Positions 31,760-40,084 of a stretch of 51,831 nucleotides of DNA are shown here, piece after piece. The notes under the pieces are model-generated. The model did not search any database and was not told where the DNA came from. It saw only the letters and a program-made list of their open reading frames with translations. The translations under genes and the position numbers were made by a program. Position 1 is the first letter of the stretch. Every line of letters starts with the position of its first letter. The stretch is taken from positions 1-51,831 of the forward strand of contig JAHJSA010000001.1 in assembly GCA_018830645.1 (NCBI GenBank), read 5' to 3'. The DNA comes from Actinomycetota bacterium (GTDB lineage: Bacteria; Actinomycetota; Thermoleophilia; RBG-16-64-13).

Positions 31760-33343
31760 GTGAGTCCCGCCGGCGCCCCCACTGAACCTCCGGCGGGAGA
31801 GAGTGCCGGCAGCGGCGGTGAGGCGCCCGCGCCGGGCGATGTTGACGCGTCTGAGTCGGGTCACCGCCTCTCGGAGCTGGAACGCGAACGCCACGCAAAG
31901 GCCGATCGTCTGGCCGCAGGTGGCGTCGAGCTCTTCGCCCGTCGCTTCGAGCCGCGCACGACAGCGGCCGAAGTGCTGGAGGCGCACGACGGCCTAGAGG
32001 CGGGCGAGTCCGCCAAGGAGGCCTTCTACCGTGTGGCCGGCCGGGTGGTCGCCCGCCGGGAGCACGGCAAGGCCGCGTTCCTCACGGTGCGCGACGGATG
32101 GGACGATCTGCAGGTGTACGCCAACGTCAACACCATCGGGCGCGAGTCCTTCGACTCGTTCACAGGGCTCGACCTGGGCGATGTCGTCGGTGTCGAAGGG
32201 CATCCCTTCCGCACCAAGCGAGGCGAGCTCTCGCTGTTCGTGTCCTCATGGATACTGCTCACGAAGTCGTTCCGCTCTCCTCCCGAGAAGTGGCACGGGT
32301 TGCAGGACAGGGAGACCCGGTACCGCCAGCGCTACGCCGACCTGATCGCGAACCCTGAAGTGGGTCGTCAGCTGACCATGCGCAGCGAACTCGTGAGCGC
32401 CATGAGGCGGTTCCTCAGTGAACGGGGCTTCCTGGAGGTCGAGACGCCCATTCTCCAACCCCTCCCGGGGGGCGCCCTCGCCCGCCCTTTCTCGACGCAT
32501 CACAACGCCCTCGACGTGCAGCTCTATCTGCGGATCGCTCCCGAGCTCTACCTGAAGCGTCTTCTCGTAGGGGGCTTCCCGCGGGTCTTCGAGATCGGGA
32601 AGAACTTCCGCAACGAGGGGATCTCGCCTATCCACAACCCTGAGTTCACCATGATGGAGCTCTATTGGGCCTACGTGGACTACCGGGAGATCATGGAGCT
32701 GGTGGAGGAGATGGTGCCGGCGATCGCCCTCGAGGTGCTCGGCACGACGAGCATCAGGGTGGAAGGGCGAGAGATCGAGCTGTCTGGCCCTTGGCCCCGG
32801 CGCACGGTCGATAGTCTGGTGCAGGGGGCGCTCGGTCTCACCATGGCAGAGATGCGAGCAGATGTAGCTGGAGCCCGCACACTTCTGCGGGCGAAGGGGG
32901 TCGATGTCGAAGGTCGCGACACGTTCTCCTCCCTCGTCGACAAGACACTGAAGCACCTGGTGTGGCCGCATGTGGTCGAGCCGATGTTCGCGGTAGATCA
33001 CCCTGTGGAGCTCAGCCCTCTGGCCAAAGTCCACCCGCAGGATCCCACGCTGGTGGAGCGTTTCCAGCCGATCATCGGTGGTCGCGAGGTGGGCAACGCC
33101 TTCTCTGAGCTGAACGATCCCCGGGATCAGCGTCGCCGGTTCGAGGATCAGGCGGCGAGCAAGGCTGCGGGTGATGAGGAGGCCATGGTGCTCGACGAGG
33201 ACTTCCTCCGGGCCCTCGAGTACGGTATGCCGCCGGCCGGCGGCCTGGGCATCGGGGTCGATAGACTGGCCATGCTGCTGCTGGGAGTCGACTCGATCCG
33301 AGACGTCATCCTCTTCCCTCAGCTTCGTCCGGAGGAGTTCTAG
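31760..33343 (+). CDS. lysS: Lysyl-tRNA synthetase, class II
   Basis: This 527-residue enzyme charges tRNA-Lys. An OB-fold anticodon domain (AGRVVARREHGKAAFLTVRDG, LGDVVGVEG) precedes the class II core: motif 1 around FLEVETPILQP, motif 2 FEIGKNFRNEGISPIHNPEFTMMELY and motif 3 GLGIGVDRLAMLLLG. The first ~35 residues are Gly/Ala/Pro-rich and not part of the fold. GTG 31760 follows the greA stop with no gap. Confidence 0.95.
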   Translation: MSPAGAPTEPPAGESAGSGGEAPAPGDVDASESGHRLSELERERHAKADRLAAGGVELFARRFEPRTTAAEVLEAHDGLEAGESAKEAFYRVAGRVVARREHGKAAFLTVRDGWDDLQVYANVNTIGRESFDSFTGLDLGDVVGVEGHPFRTKRGELSLFVSSWILLTKSFRSPPEKWHGLQDRETRYRQRYADLIANPEVGRQLTMRSELVSAMRRFLSERGFLEVETPILQPLPGGALARPFSTHHNALDVQLYLRIAPELYLKRLLVGGFPRVFEIGKNFRNEGISPIHNPEFTMMELYWAYVDYREIMELVEEMVPAIALEVLGTTSIRVEGREIELSGPWPRRTVDSLVQGALGLTMAEMRADVAGARTLLRAKGVDVEGRDTFSSLVDKTLKHLVWPHVVEPMFAVDHPVELSPLAKVHPQDPTLVERFQPIIGGREVGNAFSELNDPRDQRRRFEDQAASKAAGDEEAMVLDEDFLRALEYGMPPAGGLGIGVDRLAMLLLGVDSIRDVILFPQLRPEEF

Positions 33344-33520: not shown

Positions 33521-33545
33521 TGTGGTAAGAGAGGAGGCGGGCCAC

Positions 33546-34127
33546 GTGTTCAGCGATGGTTCCGACTGGAAGGCCGCTCCCGGCGGTGCGCGCACCTGCG
33601 ACGCGTGCGGTGCCGAGCCGGCCACCGTTCACGTGCTGCGCTTCGACGGCGAAGGCATGAACCATTCCCACCTCTGCCAGGAGTGCGCCGAAGGCGAAGC
33701 GGGCCAGGTGGAAGGCGCCGCCCTGGTGGTGGCCATGCCTGCGCCCGCGGCTGCGGGGGTCGTGCAGGGGCTTATTGTCGGCCGCTCCGTTGACGAGAAC
33801 GGCGAGCTGTTCTCCCCCTTCTGCGTCGTGTGCGGCACGACCTTGAACGATTTCCGCGAGAGCGGCCTCTTCGGATGCGCCGCGTGTCACGAGCTGTTTC
33901 GCGGTCACATGGGCGAGGTGGAGGAATCGTCGGTCGAAGGCGTCGAGTATCAGGGGAAGATCCCTTTGCGGCTCCCGGGCGACAAGACCGAGCACAGAGA
34001 GGTGGTTCGGCTGCAGCGTATGCTGCGCGAGCTGATCGACTCCGAACGCTTCGAGGAGGCCGCCGGCGTGCGTGACCGCCTCACCCATATCGAGGCCGAC
34101 TTCTCGAAGCGCAGGGTCGATGGATAG
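33546..34127 (+). CDS. mcsA: McsA-like zinc-finger/UVR-motif protein
   Basis: This 193-residue protein has four CxxC zinc-binding pairs (TCDACG, HLCQEC, PFCVVC, FGCAAC) and a C-terminal UVR helical pair (VRLQRMLRELIDSERFEEAA). In Bacillus, McsA activates the arginine kinase McsB and links it to ClpC. GTG 33546 has GAGGAG nine bases upstream; an in-frame GTG at 33522 is less likely. Its end overlaps the mcsB-like start, and clpC follows, so the order mcsA-mcsB-clpC is kept. No ctsR gene precedes it. Confidence 0.88.
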   Translation: MFSDGSDWKAAPGGARTCDACGAEPATVHVLRFDGEGMNHSHLCQECAEGEAGQVEGAALVVAMPAPAAAGVVQGLIVGRSVDENGELFSPFCVVCGTTLNDFRESGLFGCAACHELFRGHMGEVEESSVEGVEYQGKIPLRLPGDKTEHREVVRLQRMLRELIDSERFEEAAGVRDRLTHIEADFSKRRVDG

Positions 34128-35139
34128 CGCGCTGATACTCGCCTCAGGACTCACCGTCTCTCGGAACGAGTTCGCGGCCCCCTTCCCCCACGTGGCCGAC
34201 GAAGCCTCATTGCGTTCCGTCGCCGAGCGTGTCGAGAGTGTGCTGCGCAGGTGCGGCGACGCGGGTGAGTGGGAGGTGCAGCATCTTGAGGCGCTCCCCC
34301 CGGTCCAACGCAACTATCTGCTGGAACGCGGGCTGATGACACCGTCGTTTGCCGCCAATACAGGCTCGTGGCGGCTCTACGGGCTGTTCCAGGGCGGCCG
34401 TGCCGCGGTGGAGGTCAACGGGGGCGACCACCTCAGGCTCCTCACCTCGGGCCCGGGCGAGGTTCTGTCCGACCTGTGGGCTACCATCGACAGTGTGGAC
34501 GACCAGTTGGAGACCGAGATCCCCTACGCGTTCGATGAGCGCTGGGGCTATCTCACGGCCCACCTCGACGATTCCGGAACCGGTCTGAGGGCCTACGCCA
34601 CGATACACGTGCCGGGGCTCATGATCACCGGGCGCCTGGGAGGCATCGCTCTGGGCCTCGTCCGCCAAGGGCTCGGCCTGGCTCCGTTGTGGAACGGTGC
34701 GGGCGGGGTCTTCCAGGTTTTCAACAAGCGGGCTCAGGGTACATCCGAGAGGCGCATCACCGAGGCGGTGGCAGCTGCGTCGGCCGACATAGTCGATCAG
34801 GAACGCACAGTCCGCAAGAGGCTCTTCAGGGAGAATCCAGTGAGTGTGCGCGATCACATCGGTAGGGCGCTCGGTACGGCCCAGCAGGCCTGGTCGGTCT
34901 CCAACGCCGAGGGTCTCACCCTCGTCTCATCCATCCAAGTCGGCGTTGTCATGGGTCTCATCGAGGATTCCGGGTTTGGGGCCGAAGATACTCTTCGCAT
35001 GATGAGGCGCATCCAGCCGGCCCATCTGGTCATCGATGAAGTAGGGCCGGGTTTCGCGGGTCTGGAAGACCCGCAGGTTGACGAAGTCCGGGCCCGCACC
35101 CTACGCCGTCTGCTCGCGGGAGCGCGCGCCGAGCTATAG
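34120..35139 (+). CDS. McsB-like protein with degenerate catalytic site (putative pseudo-kinase)
   Basis: This 339-residue protein aligns along its length with McsB: FAAPFPHVAD, QRNYLLERGLMTPSFAA, VDDQLETEIPYAFDERWGYLT, GTGLRAYATIHVPGL, and IQPAHLV near the C-terminus. Active-site positions differ, however. The SSRIRLARN nucleotide motif reads ASGLTVSRN. The NEEDH motif reads NGGDH (residues 100-104, Glu lost). The active-site Cys of LTACPTN is His148 (LTAHLDD). The YGEGSE loop is WNGAGG (191-196, second substrate Glu lost), and NQ-TLG is NKRAQG. The C-terminal phosphoarginine pocket RD is DE. Arginine kinase activity is therefore not expected. It overlaps mcsA by 8 bases and ends 10 bases before clpC, so a structural or adaptor role with ClpC is plausible. 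Confidence 0.82.
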   Translation: MDSALILASGLTVSRNEFAAPFPHVADEASLRSVAERVESVLRRCGDAGEWEVQHLEALPPVQRNYLLERGLMTPSFAANTGSWRLYGLFQGGRAAVEVNGGDHLRLLTSGPGEVLSDLWATIDSVDDQLETEIPYAFDERWGYLTAHLDDSGTGLRAYATIHVPGLMITGRLGGIALGLVRQGLGLAPLWNGAGGVFQVFNKRAQGTSERRITEAVAAASADIVDQERTVRKRLFRENPVSVRDHIGRALGTAQQAWSVSNAEGLTLVSSIQVGVVMGLIEDSGFGAEDTLRMMRRIQPAHLVIDEVGPGFAGLEDPQVDEVRARTLRRLLAGARAEL

Positions 35140-35149
35140 AGAGGTAGCC

Positions 35150-37624
35150 ATGTTCGAACGATTCACGGAGCGTGCACGACAGGTGGTGGTCCTCGCCCAA
35201 GAGGAGGCCCGCGATCTGAAGCACAGCTACATCGGGACCGAGCACCTTCTACTCGGCCTGCTGCGTGAGGGCGACGGCGTCGCCGCACGGGTGCTCACCA
35301 CACTCGACGTGTCTCTTGAGGACGTGCGTAGCGAGATCATGCGCATCGTCGGCGAAGGTGAGCATGAGTCCCAGGGCCAGATTCCGTTCACGCCGCGCGC
35401 CAAGAAGGTGCTGGAGTTGGCCCTTCGGGAAGCCCTTTCCCTCGGCCACAACTACATTGGTACCGAGCATGTGCTCCTCGGGCTCGTGCGCGAGAGCGAA
35501 GGGGTGGCGGCCCGTATTCTGAACGACGTGGATGCCGACGCCGATCGTATCCGACAGGAAGTCATGCGTATCCTGTCGGGGCCGAGTCGCCGATCGCAGA
35601 AGTCGGGGGCGCCGGTAGGTCAGGCCAAGAAGGCTTCCAAGGTGCTCGACCAATTCGGTCGTAACCTCACGAAGTTCGCCGAGGAAGACAAGCTCGATCC
35701 CGTCATCGGTCGCGAGATGGAGATCGAACGGGTCATGCAGATCCTCTCGCGGCGCACCAAGAACAACCCCGTGCTCATCGGAGAGCCCGGTGTGGGTAAG
35801 ACCGCCGTGGTCGAAGGGCTGGCCCGCCGCATCGCGGCCAACGAAGTTCCAGAGTTGCTCAAAGACAAGCAGATCTACACTCTCGACTTGGGCGCCCTCG
35901 TAGCCGGCTCCAAGTACCGCGGTGAGTTCGAAGAGCGTCTCAAGAAGGTGATGAAGGAGATCACCGAACGGGGCGACATCATCCTCTTCATCGATGAGAT
36001 CCATAACCTGGTCGGCGCGGGCGCCGCGGAAGGAGCCATCGACGCAGCCTCCATCCTGAAGCCTGCGCTCGCCCGCGGCGAGCTCCAGACCATCGGTGCC
36101 ACCACGATCGACGAGTACCGCAAGTACCTGGCCCGCGACGCGGCGCTGGAGCGGCGCTTCCAACAGATCACGGTGAAGGAGCCTTCGGTCGAAGAGACCC
36201 AGGAGATCCTCGCGGGTCTCCGCGACCGCTACGAGGCCCATCACCGCATCAGTATCACCGACGAAGCCTTGGAAGCCGCCGCCTACCTGGCCGATCGCTA
36301 TATCAGCGACCGGTTCCTGCCCGACAAGGCTATCGACCTCATGGATGAGGCCGCCGCGCGGAAGCGTATCAAGTCCATGACGGCTCCCCCGGACTACAAG
36401 GAGCTCGAGGACAAGGTCCAGACCGTCCGCAAGGAGAAGGAAGCGGCGATCGAGGGGCAGGAGTTTGAGAAGGCCGCCAACCTGCGCGACCGTGAGCGCC
36501 GTCTCATCAACGAGAAGAAGGAGCTCGAAGAGCGGTGGAAGAACTCCGACGAGGGCTCCCGCGCTTCTATCGGTGAGGAAGAGATAGCCGAGGTCGTGGC
36601 CATGTGGACCGGCATCCCGGTGGTGAAACTCACCGAGGCCGAGACGCAGAAGCTCCTGCGCATGGAAGAGGAGCTCCACAGGCGTGTGGTCGGCCAGGAT
36701 GAGGCTCTCACCGCTGTGTCGAAGGCCATCCGGAGGTCGCGTGCCGGTCTCAAAGACCCACGGCGCCCGGCTGGGTCTTTCATCTTCCTGGGCCCCTCGG
36801 GGGTCGGCAAGACCGAGCTGGCCCGCACCCTGGCCGAGTTCCTGTTCGGCGACGAGGACTCTCTCATCCAGGTGGACATGTCGGAGTACATGGAGAAACA
36901 CTCCGTGAGTCGGCTCGTGGGTTCGCCTCCTGGCTACGTCGGCTACGACGAGGGTGGGCAGCTCACGGAATCCGTGCGGCGCAGGCCCTACAGCGTGGTC
37001 TTGCTCGACGAGATCGAGAAGGCCCACCCCGATGTGTTCAACATCCTTCTCCAGATCCTCGAGGATGGACGCCTTACGGACGCGCAGGGGCGCACGGTCG
37101 ACTTCCGCAACACTATCGTGATCATGACGTCGAACATCGGGGCCGGCATCATCTCGAAGGGCCAGACTCTCGGCTTCGGCGAGCGAACGGATGACGGTGG
37201 TCTCGAGCACGGCGAGATGAAGACCCGGGTCATGGGCGAACTCAAGAAGGTCTTCCGCCCCGAGTTCCTGAACCGTATCGACGAGGTCATCGTGTTCCAC
37301 AAGCTCACCAAAGACCAGGTCTACGACATTATCGACCTGCTCCTGGCGAGACTGCGCGTGCAGCTCGGTGATCGCGGTATCAACCTGGAACTCACCAACG
37401 AAGCCAAGGAGCGCCTGCTCGATGCTGGGTACGACCCGGGCATGGGCGCGCGTCCGCTGCGTCGCGCGATCCAGCGCATGGTGGAAGATGTCTTGGCTGA
37501 AGAGGTGCTCGCGGGGAGACTGCCGCCTGGTTCGACGGTGGTCATGGCTCGCGACGGAGATGAGTTGGTGGTGGCCGAGGTGCTGTCAGTATCTGCCGAG
37601 GTCTTGGTGGGCGAGGAATCGTAG
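35150..37624 (+). CDS. clpC: ATP-dependent Clp protease ATPase subunit ClpC
   Basis: This 824-residue Hsp100 unfoldase delivers substrates to ClpP. It begins [20 protein letters not shown] with the double N-domain, then ATPase 1 (Walker A GEPGVGKT near residue 211), the UVR-containing middle region ([18 protein letters not shown]) expected of ClpC rather than ClpB, and ATPase 2 (Walker A GPSGVGKT near 547, sensor 2 [11 protein letters not shown]). GAGGTAGCC lies before ATG 35150. It follows mcsA and the McsB-like gene. Confidence 0.96.
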
Positions 37625-37638
37625 CGGAACGGAGTCGA

Positions 37639-39009
37639 TTGGCGCGAAGTCGCAGTATCTTCGTCTGCAATAGCTGCGGCTATCAGAGCTCGCGCTGGCT
37701 GGGCCGTTGCCCCGACTGCGACGAGTGGAACACGCTCCAGGAGGAGTTGGCTGCGGTGCGGGTGCTTCCTGGGGGTGGCCGCACAACCGCGGCCGCTCCG
37801 GTGCCGGTGAGGCTTTCTTCGGTCAGCGCCCACGCCGAGGAACGGGTGAGTTCAGGCCTGAGCGAGTTCGATCTCGTGCTCGGAGGCGGCTTGGTGCAGG
37901 GCTCTGTCGTGCTTGTTGGAGGTGAGCCGGGCATCGGGAAGAGCACCTTGCTCTTGCAGGCTCTGCTGGATCTGGAGGCCCGCGGGGTCTCGACACTGTT
38001 GGTGTCGGGCGAGGAGTCGCCTGCCCAGGTGAAGATGCGTGCGCGCCGGCTCGACGGTCCGGTGGATGATCTGCGCCTGATCGGCGAGACGCGGAGCGCC
38101 CCGGTCCTGGCGTGTCTCGAGGAGCACGCGCCGGCCGTGTGTGTCGTCGACAGCATCCAGACGCTGTGGTCCGAGGAGATCTCTTCGGCGCCCGGGTCGG
38201 TATCGCAGATCCGAGACGTTACAGGACAGCTGCTTCGGGTGGCGAAAGGGAATGGGATCACCATGCTGCTGGTGGGGCACGTGACCAAGGCCGGCGATCT
38301 GGCCGGGCCCCGTGTTCTCGAGCACATGGTCGACGCCGTCTTGTCGTTCGAGGGAGATCGCACCCGTCCGTACAGGATACTTCGGGCGGTGAAGAACCGC
38401 TTCGGTTCGACGAACGAGGTGGGTGTGTTCCAGATGACGGGCCGGGGGCTCGTGGGTGTGCCCGATCCGTCGGCTCTGTTCCTGGAAGACGGCCCGGCGA
38501 GTCCCGGGGCGGCGATACTGGCGGCGGTCGAAGGCTCGCGGTGCCTCCTGGCCGAAGTGCAGGCGCTGGTGGTGCCGAGTGCGCTCGCGATGCCCCGTCG
38601 AGTCACCCGGGGCGTCGACGGCAACCGGTTGGCGATGGTGACGGCGGTGCTCACGAGGCGGGCCGGCATGCGTCTGGGAGAGTGCGACATCTTCGTGAAC
38701 GTGGGCGGGGGGCTGTCGGTGGAAGACCCGGCAGCCGACCTGCCCTTGGCCCTTGCCGTCGCCTCGGCTCTGCACGACAGGCCGCTACCGGGTGTGGCGG
38801 CTTTCGGGGAACTCAGTCTCACCGGGCGGGTACGGTACGTGGCTCACGGCGAGGTACGGGTGCAGGAGTTGGCCAGACACGGCATCGAGCGGGTTCTCGC
38901 CCCCCGCCGGAATGTGGACGAGCTTCGTGAGCGGGGCGCGGTGCCTCCGGGTGTGACGTTGCAGGCGGTCGAGGATATCCAGGACGTAGTGAGAGGTGTC
39001 ATTGCCTAA
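37639..39009 (+). CDS. radA: DNA repair protein RadA
   Basis: RadA promotes strand exchange and branch migration in recombination. The 456-residue product has the N-terminal zinc finger FVCNSCGYQSSRWLGRCPDC, Walker A GGEPGIGKSTLLLQA, the RadA signature KNRFGSTNEVGVFQM, and a C-terminal Lon-like domain (DIFVNVGGGLSVEDPAADLPLALA). The start is TTG 37639 with ACGGAG just upstream. The disA start lies inside its end (14-base overlap). Confidence 0.95.
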   Translation: MARSRSIFVCNSCGYQSSRWLGRCPDCDEWNTLQEELAAVRVLPGGGRTTAAAPVPVRLSSVSAHAEERVSSGLSEFDLVLGGGLVQGSVVLVGGEPGIGKSTLLLQALLDLEARGVSTLLVSGEESPAQVKMRARRLDGPVDDLRLIGETRSAPVLACLEEHAPAVCVVDSIQTLWSEEISSAPGSVSQIRDVTGQLLRVAKGNGITMLLVGHVTKAGDLAGPRVLEHMVDAVLSFEGDRTRPYRILRAVKNRFGSTNEVGVFQMTGRGLVGVPDPSALFLEDGPASPGAAILAAVEGSRCLLAEVQALVVPSALAMPRRVTRGVDGNRLAMVTAVLTRRAGMRLGECDIFVNVGGGLSVEDPAADLPLALAVASALHDRPLPGVAAFGELSLTGRVRYVAHGEVRVQELARHGIERVLAPRRNVDELRERGAVPPGVTLQAVEDIQDVVRGVIA

Positions 39010-40084
39010 GAAGCAGATTCCCCCTAGTGATCGACTCCTCGAGGCCCTTCGGCTGGTCGCACCTGGCACGGTGATCCGCGAAGCTCTCGACAATATCGTG
39101 CGCGCCCGAACCGGCGCCCTCCTCGTGTTCGCCGACAAGGACCAGGTGGACCCGTTGGTGACCGGCGGCATCCCGATCGGCGCCGAACTCACTCCCATGG
39201 TGGTATACGAGTTGGCGAAGATGGACGGGGGGATACTGTTCACGCGTGACGGCAGCCGTATCACTCACGCCAACGTCCACCTCATGCCCGATCCGAGCAT
39301 CCCGTCGATGGAGACCGGCACGAGACATCGCACTGCCGAGCGGGTGGCCAAGCAGATCGACGCTCTCGTGCTGTCGATCTCGGCAGCCCGAGACGTCGTG
39401 TCTCTGTATATCGATGGCACCCGCTACGTGCTCGAAGAGATACGGGTGATCTTGACCAAGGCCAACCAAGCCCTTCAGACGCTCGAGAAGTACAAGTCGC
39501 GGCTCACCCAGGTATCCACTTCCCTGAGTGCTCTCGAGTTCGAGGACGCGGTCACGCTCTACGACGTGTTGAGCGTGCTCCAGCGGTCGGAGATGGTGTT
39601 GCGCGTGGCCCGGGAGATCGAGCGCTACATCGTGGAGCTGGGCGGCGAGGGCAGGCTCATCCGCATGCAGTTGGAAGAGCTGATGGTCGACGTGCGGGAG
39701 GACCAGAGGTCGGTACTGCTCGACTACCTACCCGATTTTGCCGATCTGAGCGCCGACGAGGTGGCTGTGGGTCTGAGTCGACTCGACTCCGACGCCATAG
39801 TGTCCCTGCCCCGCATCGGCGAACTGCTCGGGTACGCCGGCGATGTCGATCCCATCGAACTGCACGTCTCGGCGAGGGGCCACCGCATGCTGCGCAAGAT
39901 CCCGCGCCTCCCGAAGGGCGTCATCGTGAACCTGGTCGGGGGGTTCTCGAGTCTCGAAGACATCATCAACGCCACCACCGATGAGCTGGTTGCCGTGGAC
40001 GGAGTCAGCCCCGCGCGTGCTCACGACATCAAAGAAGGGTTCCTACGTCTGAGGGAGCTCAACCTGTTAGAGAGGTACGGATGA
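38996..40084 (+). CDS. disA: Diadenylate cyclase DisA, DNA-integrity scanning protein
   Basis: DisA is an octameric enzyme that makes cyclic di-AMP and scans DNA for branches. The 362-residue protein has the cyclase domain with ELAKMDGGILF, where the usual DGA motif reads DGG, and an intact RHR motif (ETGTRHRTAERVA). A helical spine follows, then a C-terminal helix-hairpin-helix DNA-binding domain (LVAVDGVSPARAHDIKEGF). The DGA to DGG change is small and may be tolerated. GTG 38996 is coupled to radA. Cyclic di-AMP signalling thus lies in the same stretch as two cyclic di-GMP proteins. Confidence 0.94.
   Translation: MSLPKKQIPPSDRLLEALRLVAPGTVIREALDNIVRARTGALLVFADKDQVDPLVTGGIPIGAELTPMVVYELAKMDGGILFTRDGSRITHANVHLMPDPSIPSMETGTRHRTAERVAKQIDALVLSISAARDVVSLYIDGTRYVLEEIRVILTKANQALQTLEKYKSRLTQVSTSLSALEFEDAVTLYDVLSVLQRSEMVLRVAREIERYIVELGGEGRLIRMQLEELMVDVREDQRSVLLDYLPDFADLSADEVAVGLSRLDSDAIVSLPRIGELLGYAGDVDPIELHVSARGHRMLRKIPRLPKGVIVNLVGGFSSLEDIINATTDELVAVDGVSPARAHDIKEGFLRLRELNLLERYG

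Follow-up and report, generated by a model that had tools for sequence, protein, structure and literature searches.

A McsB orthologue lacking most catalytic residues of protein arginine kinase, kept between mcsA and clpC in a family of Actinomycetota

Described McsB kinases and the present locus

In bacteria, damaged proteins are marked with phosphoarginine, and so for destruction, by the enzyme McsB; ClpC is an unfoldase. The closest described systems are those of Bacillus subtilis, Geobacillus stearothermophilus and Staphylococcus aureus. In B. subtilis, McsB binds to ClpC, is inhibited by it and is coupled to it in translation; stimulation of ClpC by McsB was reported to require the kinase activity, which makes the kinase and adaptor roles of McsB hard to separate in this species (PMC5506225). 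Replacement of R29, R31, R34, R125, R176, R207 or R337 of B. subtilis McsB by Lys abolishes the kinase signal. The R272K and R341K variants lose stimulation by McsA, with weak autophosphorylation persisting, and R96 and R169 of McsA are required for this stimulation (PMC7235348).

The window analysed here, a stretch of 51,831 nucleotides, contains a gene for a McsB-like protein with the following surroundings.

31760..33343, + strand: lysS, the upstream neighbour in a conserved gene order (ORF and translation, assigned by reading the sequence)
33522..34127, + strand: mcsA, the partner gene (UVR domain PF02151; two zinc fingers, eight Cys kept; score below the cut-off of the NCBIfam McsA model)
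34120..35139, + strand: gene for the McsB-like putative pseudo-kinase, 339 amino acids (PF00217, E 1.8e-28)
35150..37624, + strand: clpC, both N-domain GTEH motifs retained
37639..40084, + strand: radA and disA, lying downstream just as they do near clpC in Bacillus (ORFs 37639-39009 and 38996-40084, assigned by reading the sequence)

The gene order in the window is lysS-mcsA-mcsB-clpC-radA-disA. The mcsB ORF comprises 340 codons including the stop and runs from ATG to TAG with its frame undamaged. It shares 8 bases with the 3' end of mcsA, stop included, and the clpC start lies 10 bases past the mcsB stop. The mcsA-mcsB-clpC order and the intact frame that had been claimed in a preliminary description were thus found as described.

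The encoded protein shares with the McsB kinases of the three species above a full-length two-domain fold, the mcsA/clpC gene order, and the residues corresponding to R272 and R341. Unlike them, it has no R29, R31 or R207, no lid loop, no active-site Cys and neither of the two substrate glutamates; given the ATG start at 34120, it also lacks the N-terminal arm of approximately 18 residues, and ctsR is missing from its operon and genome. The catalytic fold of PF00217 is common to the phosphagen kinases (arginine kinase, creatine kinase), but the phosphagen N-domain is absent here and the catalytic residues are lost. In bacterial Ser/Thr pseudokinases (PMC12599244), the fold is likewise kept, residues for catalysis are lost and the state is conserved in a clade; they differ in having an unrelated fold and no tie to a Clp unfoldase.

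In the genome from which the window comes (99.84% complete), a profile search found no other PF00217 gene, i.e., no second ATP:guanido kinase. Neither ctsR nor a low-molecular-weight phosphatase of the YwlE kind (LMWPc) was found in this genome. The B. subtilis control genome was positive for LMWPc and negative for PF00217 and CtsR, though the species has mcsB and ctsR, so that the controls are uninformative on sensitivity for the latter two families. CtsR was not found in any of the 296 genomes sampled from the phylum, including those with intact McsB. Its absence is therefore uninformative, and was rejected as evidence for loss of the pathway.

Fold and catalytic residues

The protein contains a PF00217 domain scoring 99.8 bits, against a gathering cut-off of 22.4. 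The best score to the NCBIfam protein arginine kinase equivalogs was 190 bits (cut-off 385), and that to the McsB model was 144 (cut-off 500). Searches of the PDB by sequence and by fold, Foldseek included, both ranked McsB chains first. An AlphaFold2 model built from 20 sequences had a mean pLDDT of 88.2 and a pTM of 0.85. Superposition of this model on Geobacillus McsB (6fh3_A) gave a Z score of 37.7 and an rmsd of 2.5 for 328 aligned residues, covering both domains, whereas comparison with arginine kinase gave a Z score of about 22 across 227 residues. In the predicted structure, the McsB fold is retained, including the dimerisation domain. This agrees with the earlier view of a McsB-like protein keeping the fold-level motifs. 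The PF00217 match, the full-length fold with its C-terminal dimerisation domain, the gene order and the placement within McsB in trees mean that the protein is a full-length McsB orthologue by descent, fold and position.

The active site was compared by alignment with the McsB sequences of B. subtilis and G. stearothermophilus, which were checked against the PDB chains. Roles of the residues were drawn from PMC7235348 and from general knowledge of phosphagen kinases. The following replacements were observed; "family" refers to the 18 copies described in the next section.

34147..34155, + strand: G10-x-T12 in place of the nucleotide-binding R29/R31 (SSRIRLARN motif); R at neither site in 18/18 family copies
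34420..34425, + strand: G101-G102 in place of E120-E121 (substrate glutamate, NEEDHxR); E120 is G in 18/18, and the E121 position has nine different residues in the family
34561..34563, + strand: H148 in place of the active-site C167; R, H, Y, S, L or D in the family, never C
34681..34698, + strand: A188-P-L-W-N-G, where R207 is lost and the lid loop with the substrate glutamate E212 is four residues shorter (18/18)

None of the six catalytic residues R29, R31, E121, C167, R207 and E212 is present. On the other hand, the active-site arginines R34, R125 and R176 are retained as R15, R106 and R157, and D122 and H123 are also retained. The RD pair of the phosphoarginine pocket reads V320-D321, which means that R337 is lost and D338 is kept. 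The preliminary description had stated that the nucleotide arginines, both substrate glutamates, the active-site Cys and the pocket RD were all changed. For the glutamates (E120 to G101, E121 to G102, and E212 deleted with the loop) and the Cys, the alignment bears this out. For the nucleotide arginines it holds for R29, R31 and R207 but not for R34, R125 and R176, and for the pocket it holds for the Arg but not for the Asp.

As for the pocket, R337 is R in just four of 20 intact homologues compared. Since this Arg is missing from the majority of intact homologues as well, its loss has no diagnostic value; the argument from the phosphoarginine pocket is weak, and the loss of R337 was rejected as evidence.

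Judged from its residues, the protein is a McsB orthologue that fails the defining test of a protein arginine kinase, and it very probably does not phosphorylate arginine. Some residual nucleotide binding may occur via R34, R125 and R176. Automated annotation from the domain only would label such eroded proteins arginine kinases.

Conservation in the family and erosion in other lineages

The gene was found, in 18 copies, in 17 of the 18 genomes of the Actinomycetota family to which the window belongs; the genome without it is 78% complete. The named records of the family, RBG_16_64_13 among them, are metagenome-assembled genomes and carry the labels Thermoleophilia, Gaiellales, Actinomycetes or Actinomycetota. 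When the 18 copies were aligned with the B. subtilis and G. stearothermophilus proteins, the changes were seen to be shared by the whole clade: R29, R31, E120, C167, R207 and E212 are lost in every copy and E121 in 15 (E in three). The question of a clade-wide change, raised in the preliminary description, is thereby answered in the affirmative. A full or nearly full catalytic set is kept by 20 homologues elsewhere. Forty-five positions reach 95% conservation or more among 20 intact homologues, and nine of these (R29, R31, N170, S178, R207, G208, E212, N219 and L297) are kept in at most 10% of family copies. All nine except L297 are in or beside active-site motifs. In these alignments, the family-wide residue pattern is far beyond chance.

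Around the old pocket, H24, E98, G101, P189, W191 and G196 are newly invariant in the family (H at 43, E at 117, G at 120, P at 208, W at 210 and G at 219 in B. subtilis numbering). R34, D122, H123 and Y163 are kept, R125 and R176 are mostly kept, and the R337 position is occupied by I, V or F. Residues of the regulatory/dimerisation domain are retained as follows.

34864..35091, + strand: R249, G252, E264, S270, G275, D321 and R324 (R272, G275, E287, S293, G298, D338 and R341 in B. subtilis), present in 18/18 in the family and in nearly all other eroded homologues

In the C-terminal domain, D268, R272, G275, E287, S293, G298, R341 and A342 are kept in 18/18 copies, and the regulatory-domain positions are invariant across 11 genera. 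This domain is better conserved in the family than in the intact set (mean entropy 1.10 and 1.86 bits, respectively), the family being also less diverse.

The dN/dS values of mcsB were 0.09-0.11 (G000/G001) and 0.06-0.08 (G010/G014), similar to or below those of mcsA, these being the two pairs of relatives whose synonymous sites are not saturated. None of the 18 copies is broken. A pseudogene or sequencing damage is ruled out by the 18 open copies and by dN/dS well under 1. The mcsA-mcsB-clpC order is conserved throughout the family. Thus, the fold is kept, the catalytic residues are lost clade-wide and the coding sequence is under purifying selection, as expected of a pseudo-kinase. Together with the conserved operon and the lack of a second kinase in the genome, this strongly supports a conserved McsB in which the known arginine kinase mechanism cannot operate.

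It should be mentioned that one genome (G007, with 7% contamination) has two mcsA-mcsB-clpC copies, L007 and L018, on different contigs. The second copy resembles another genus and may be a binning error.

In the class as a whole, 17 of 41 genomes have both mcsA and mcsB and none has one without the other; both PF00217 and mcsA are absent from 23/23 genomes of the other families. Among the 296 genomes of the phylum sampled, 41 have PF00217. Several families keep the full catalytic set, and others are eroded, differing in degree and pattern; nearly all eroded homologues have an upstream McsA bearing four CxxC motifs and ClpC downstream. In the eroded copies of other Actinomycetota (L031-L048, L076-L082), R29S/R31Y/E121D/R207S was observed in some genera and R207N/E212G in others, and same-family neighbours of these copies keep the full catalytic set.

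A similar situation was found in the Verrucomicrobiales. In the order of one such locus, the gene is present in 74 of 76 genomes and most copies score intact; the best twelve by score were read, and all have the full catalytic set. Ten low-scoring copies, located between mcsA and clpC, show erosion that differs in extent. At eight of these ten loci, ClpC has GAEH in place of the first N-domain GTEH motif; L099, the mildest case, keeps GTEH, and L103 is unreadable there. Intact Verrucomicrobiales relatives have GTEH, and the actinomycetes retain both GTEH motifs. The glutamate of this motif, by count on the B. subtilis sequence, presumably matches a phosphoarginine-binding glutamate reportedly described by Trentini in 2016. 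The eroded Verrucomicrobiales clade (L099-L107, L085) has small genomes of 2.2-2.7 Mb.

In trees from which the catalytic columns were masked out, the family of the window forms a single clade (100/100) on a long stem branch, sister to a mostly intact clade of the same phylum (91/89 and 95/83). The intact or eroded state changes at least six times on the tree, including the Verrucomicrobiales clade and other actinomycete families, although long branches, and cut-offs set arbitrarily at 7 or 6 of 8 residues, leave the exact number uncertain, and the count of catalytic residues is not a measure of activity. As read from these sequences, graded erosion of the active site with retention of the operon arose independently elsewhere. 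The eroded homologues of the Verrucomicrobiales and other Actinomycetota have the same operon order as the window's family, and most keep the dimerisation domain, with the active site variably lost. They differ in that their losses are independent and follow other residue patterns, and in the GAEH motif in most ClpC proteins of the Verrucomicrobiales clade.

A possible role with McsA and ClpC

Since the protein has been retained alongside McsA and ClpC and selection preserves its regulatory domain, a phosphorylation-independent role on ClpC, exerted jointly with McsA, is proposed. The protein would be a pseudo-kinase orthologue of McsB, keeping the fold and the dimerisation/regulatory domain and lacking ATP-dependent arginine phosphorylation by the known mechanism. 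It would be a partner of McsA and ClpC that does no catalysis, and its synthesis would keep pace with that of ClpC through the overlapping or adjoining genes. McsA, with its zinc fingers intact (all eight cysteines kept in 18/18 family copies), would bind the pseudo-kinase and set its state, and the complex might act on ClpC either as an adaptor bringing clients or as a brake released under stress. Gene order and the co-occurrence of mcsA point to binding of McsA and ClpC and to one of these two roles, and we regard such an adaptor or brake as reasonably probable. An adaptor of ClpC had been suggested in the preliminary description. The disabled kinase in that suggestion is strongly supported and the adaptor role is plausible from its context, but the argument from the phosphoarginine pocket fails.

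The main argument against this role is the reported kinase dependence of ClpC stimulation in B. subtilis (PMC5506225). The remaining R34, R125 and R176 also count against it, as does the loss in the family of the stimulatory R96 and R169 of McsA, though these vary elsewhere. In B. subtilis, the half-life of MgsR was 12.3 min with the kinase-dead C167S variant and 17.7 min in the deletion strain; the authors read this result as a kinase-independent adaptor function, which is partial only (PMC7235348).

The residues around the old pocket might also mean that the active site was rebuilt for another ligand or reaction, such as nucleotide or small-molecule binding or another transfer, with H24, E98, P189, W191 and G196 as new conserved residues. 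The location of these invariants and the retention of R34, D122, H123, Y163 and, mostly, R125 and R176 seem to fit such a site. However, the new invariants are mostly G, P or W and equally fit for packing a closed pocket, the C167 and E121 positions vary freely, and three phosphate-binding arginines are gone; a rebuilt site is considered rather unlikely. If E98, a family-specific invariant acid near the lost glutamates, worked with the remaining R34, R125, R176, D122 and H123, arginine could still be phosphorylated by a non-canonical set of residues. This seems most improbable, as R29, R31 and R207 are each required in B. subtilis (PMC7235348), neither substrate carboxylate remains, the lid loop is lost, and the YwlE-kind phosphatase is missing from the genome.

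The absence of both genes from the other families of the class, the long stem branch and the coupled translation of McsB and ClpC in B. subtilis (PMC5506225) might suggest a passenger heading for loss, kept mainly through mcsB-clpC translational coupling. The low dN/dS (about 0.06-0.11), the lack of broken copies and the invariant regulatory-domain positions make this distinctly unlikely; a coupling role alone would not conserve the protein sequence. The protein might instead read phosphoarginine made by some other kinase and pass the proteins so marked to ClpC. The dimerisation domain, D338 and R341 are kept, ClpC retains both GTEH motifs, and phosphoarginine was reported in Mycolicibacterium smegmatis, which is without known McsB (PMC9604228). 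Nevertheless, the pocket position R337 holds I, V or F and 15 of 18 family genomes are without the low-molecular-weight phosphatase, so that a reader is very unlikely. LMWPc was counted by hand in 3/18 family genomes and 14/16 genomes with intact McsB; its scarcity in the family is suggestive, but the comparison is confounded by kinship and the Pfam family takes in more than YwlE.

Among these explanations, the adaptor or brake on ClpC is preferred, and McsB probably has a second job independent of its kinase activity. More tentatively, with slightly less than even confidence, this job might be an ancestral function with McsA and ClpC that needs no phosphoarginine: the kinase would have been dropped repeatedly in unrelated bacteria while the operon was kept, and in the present family the old active site would now serve as a conserved surface or ligand pocket, newly formed and without a kinase function. 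Naturally eroded McsB, found beside mcsA and clpC in several lineages and under selection, offers a clean route to the function of McsB without phosphoarginine. It is also a warning that the presence of mcsA-mcsB-clpC alone does not imply a phosphoarginine system. No earlier report of a McsB pseudo-kinase was found in the literature searched, which is weak evidence of novelty since most subscription journals lie outside it.

Changes were also observed in McsA. R96 and R169 are mostly or wholly replaced in the family, and R96 also varies beside intact McsB. At the position of B. subtilis K93, the McsA proteins of the family, in which R169 is absent, have a family-specific glutamate.
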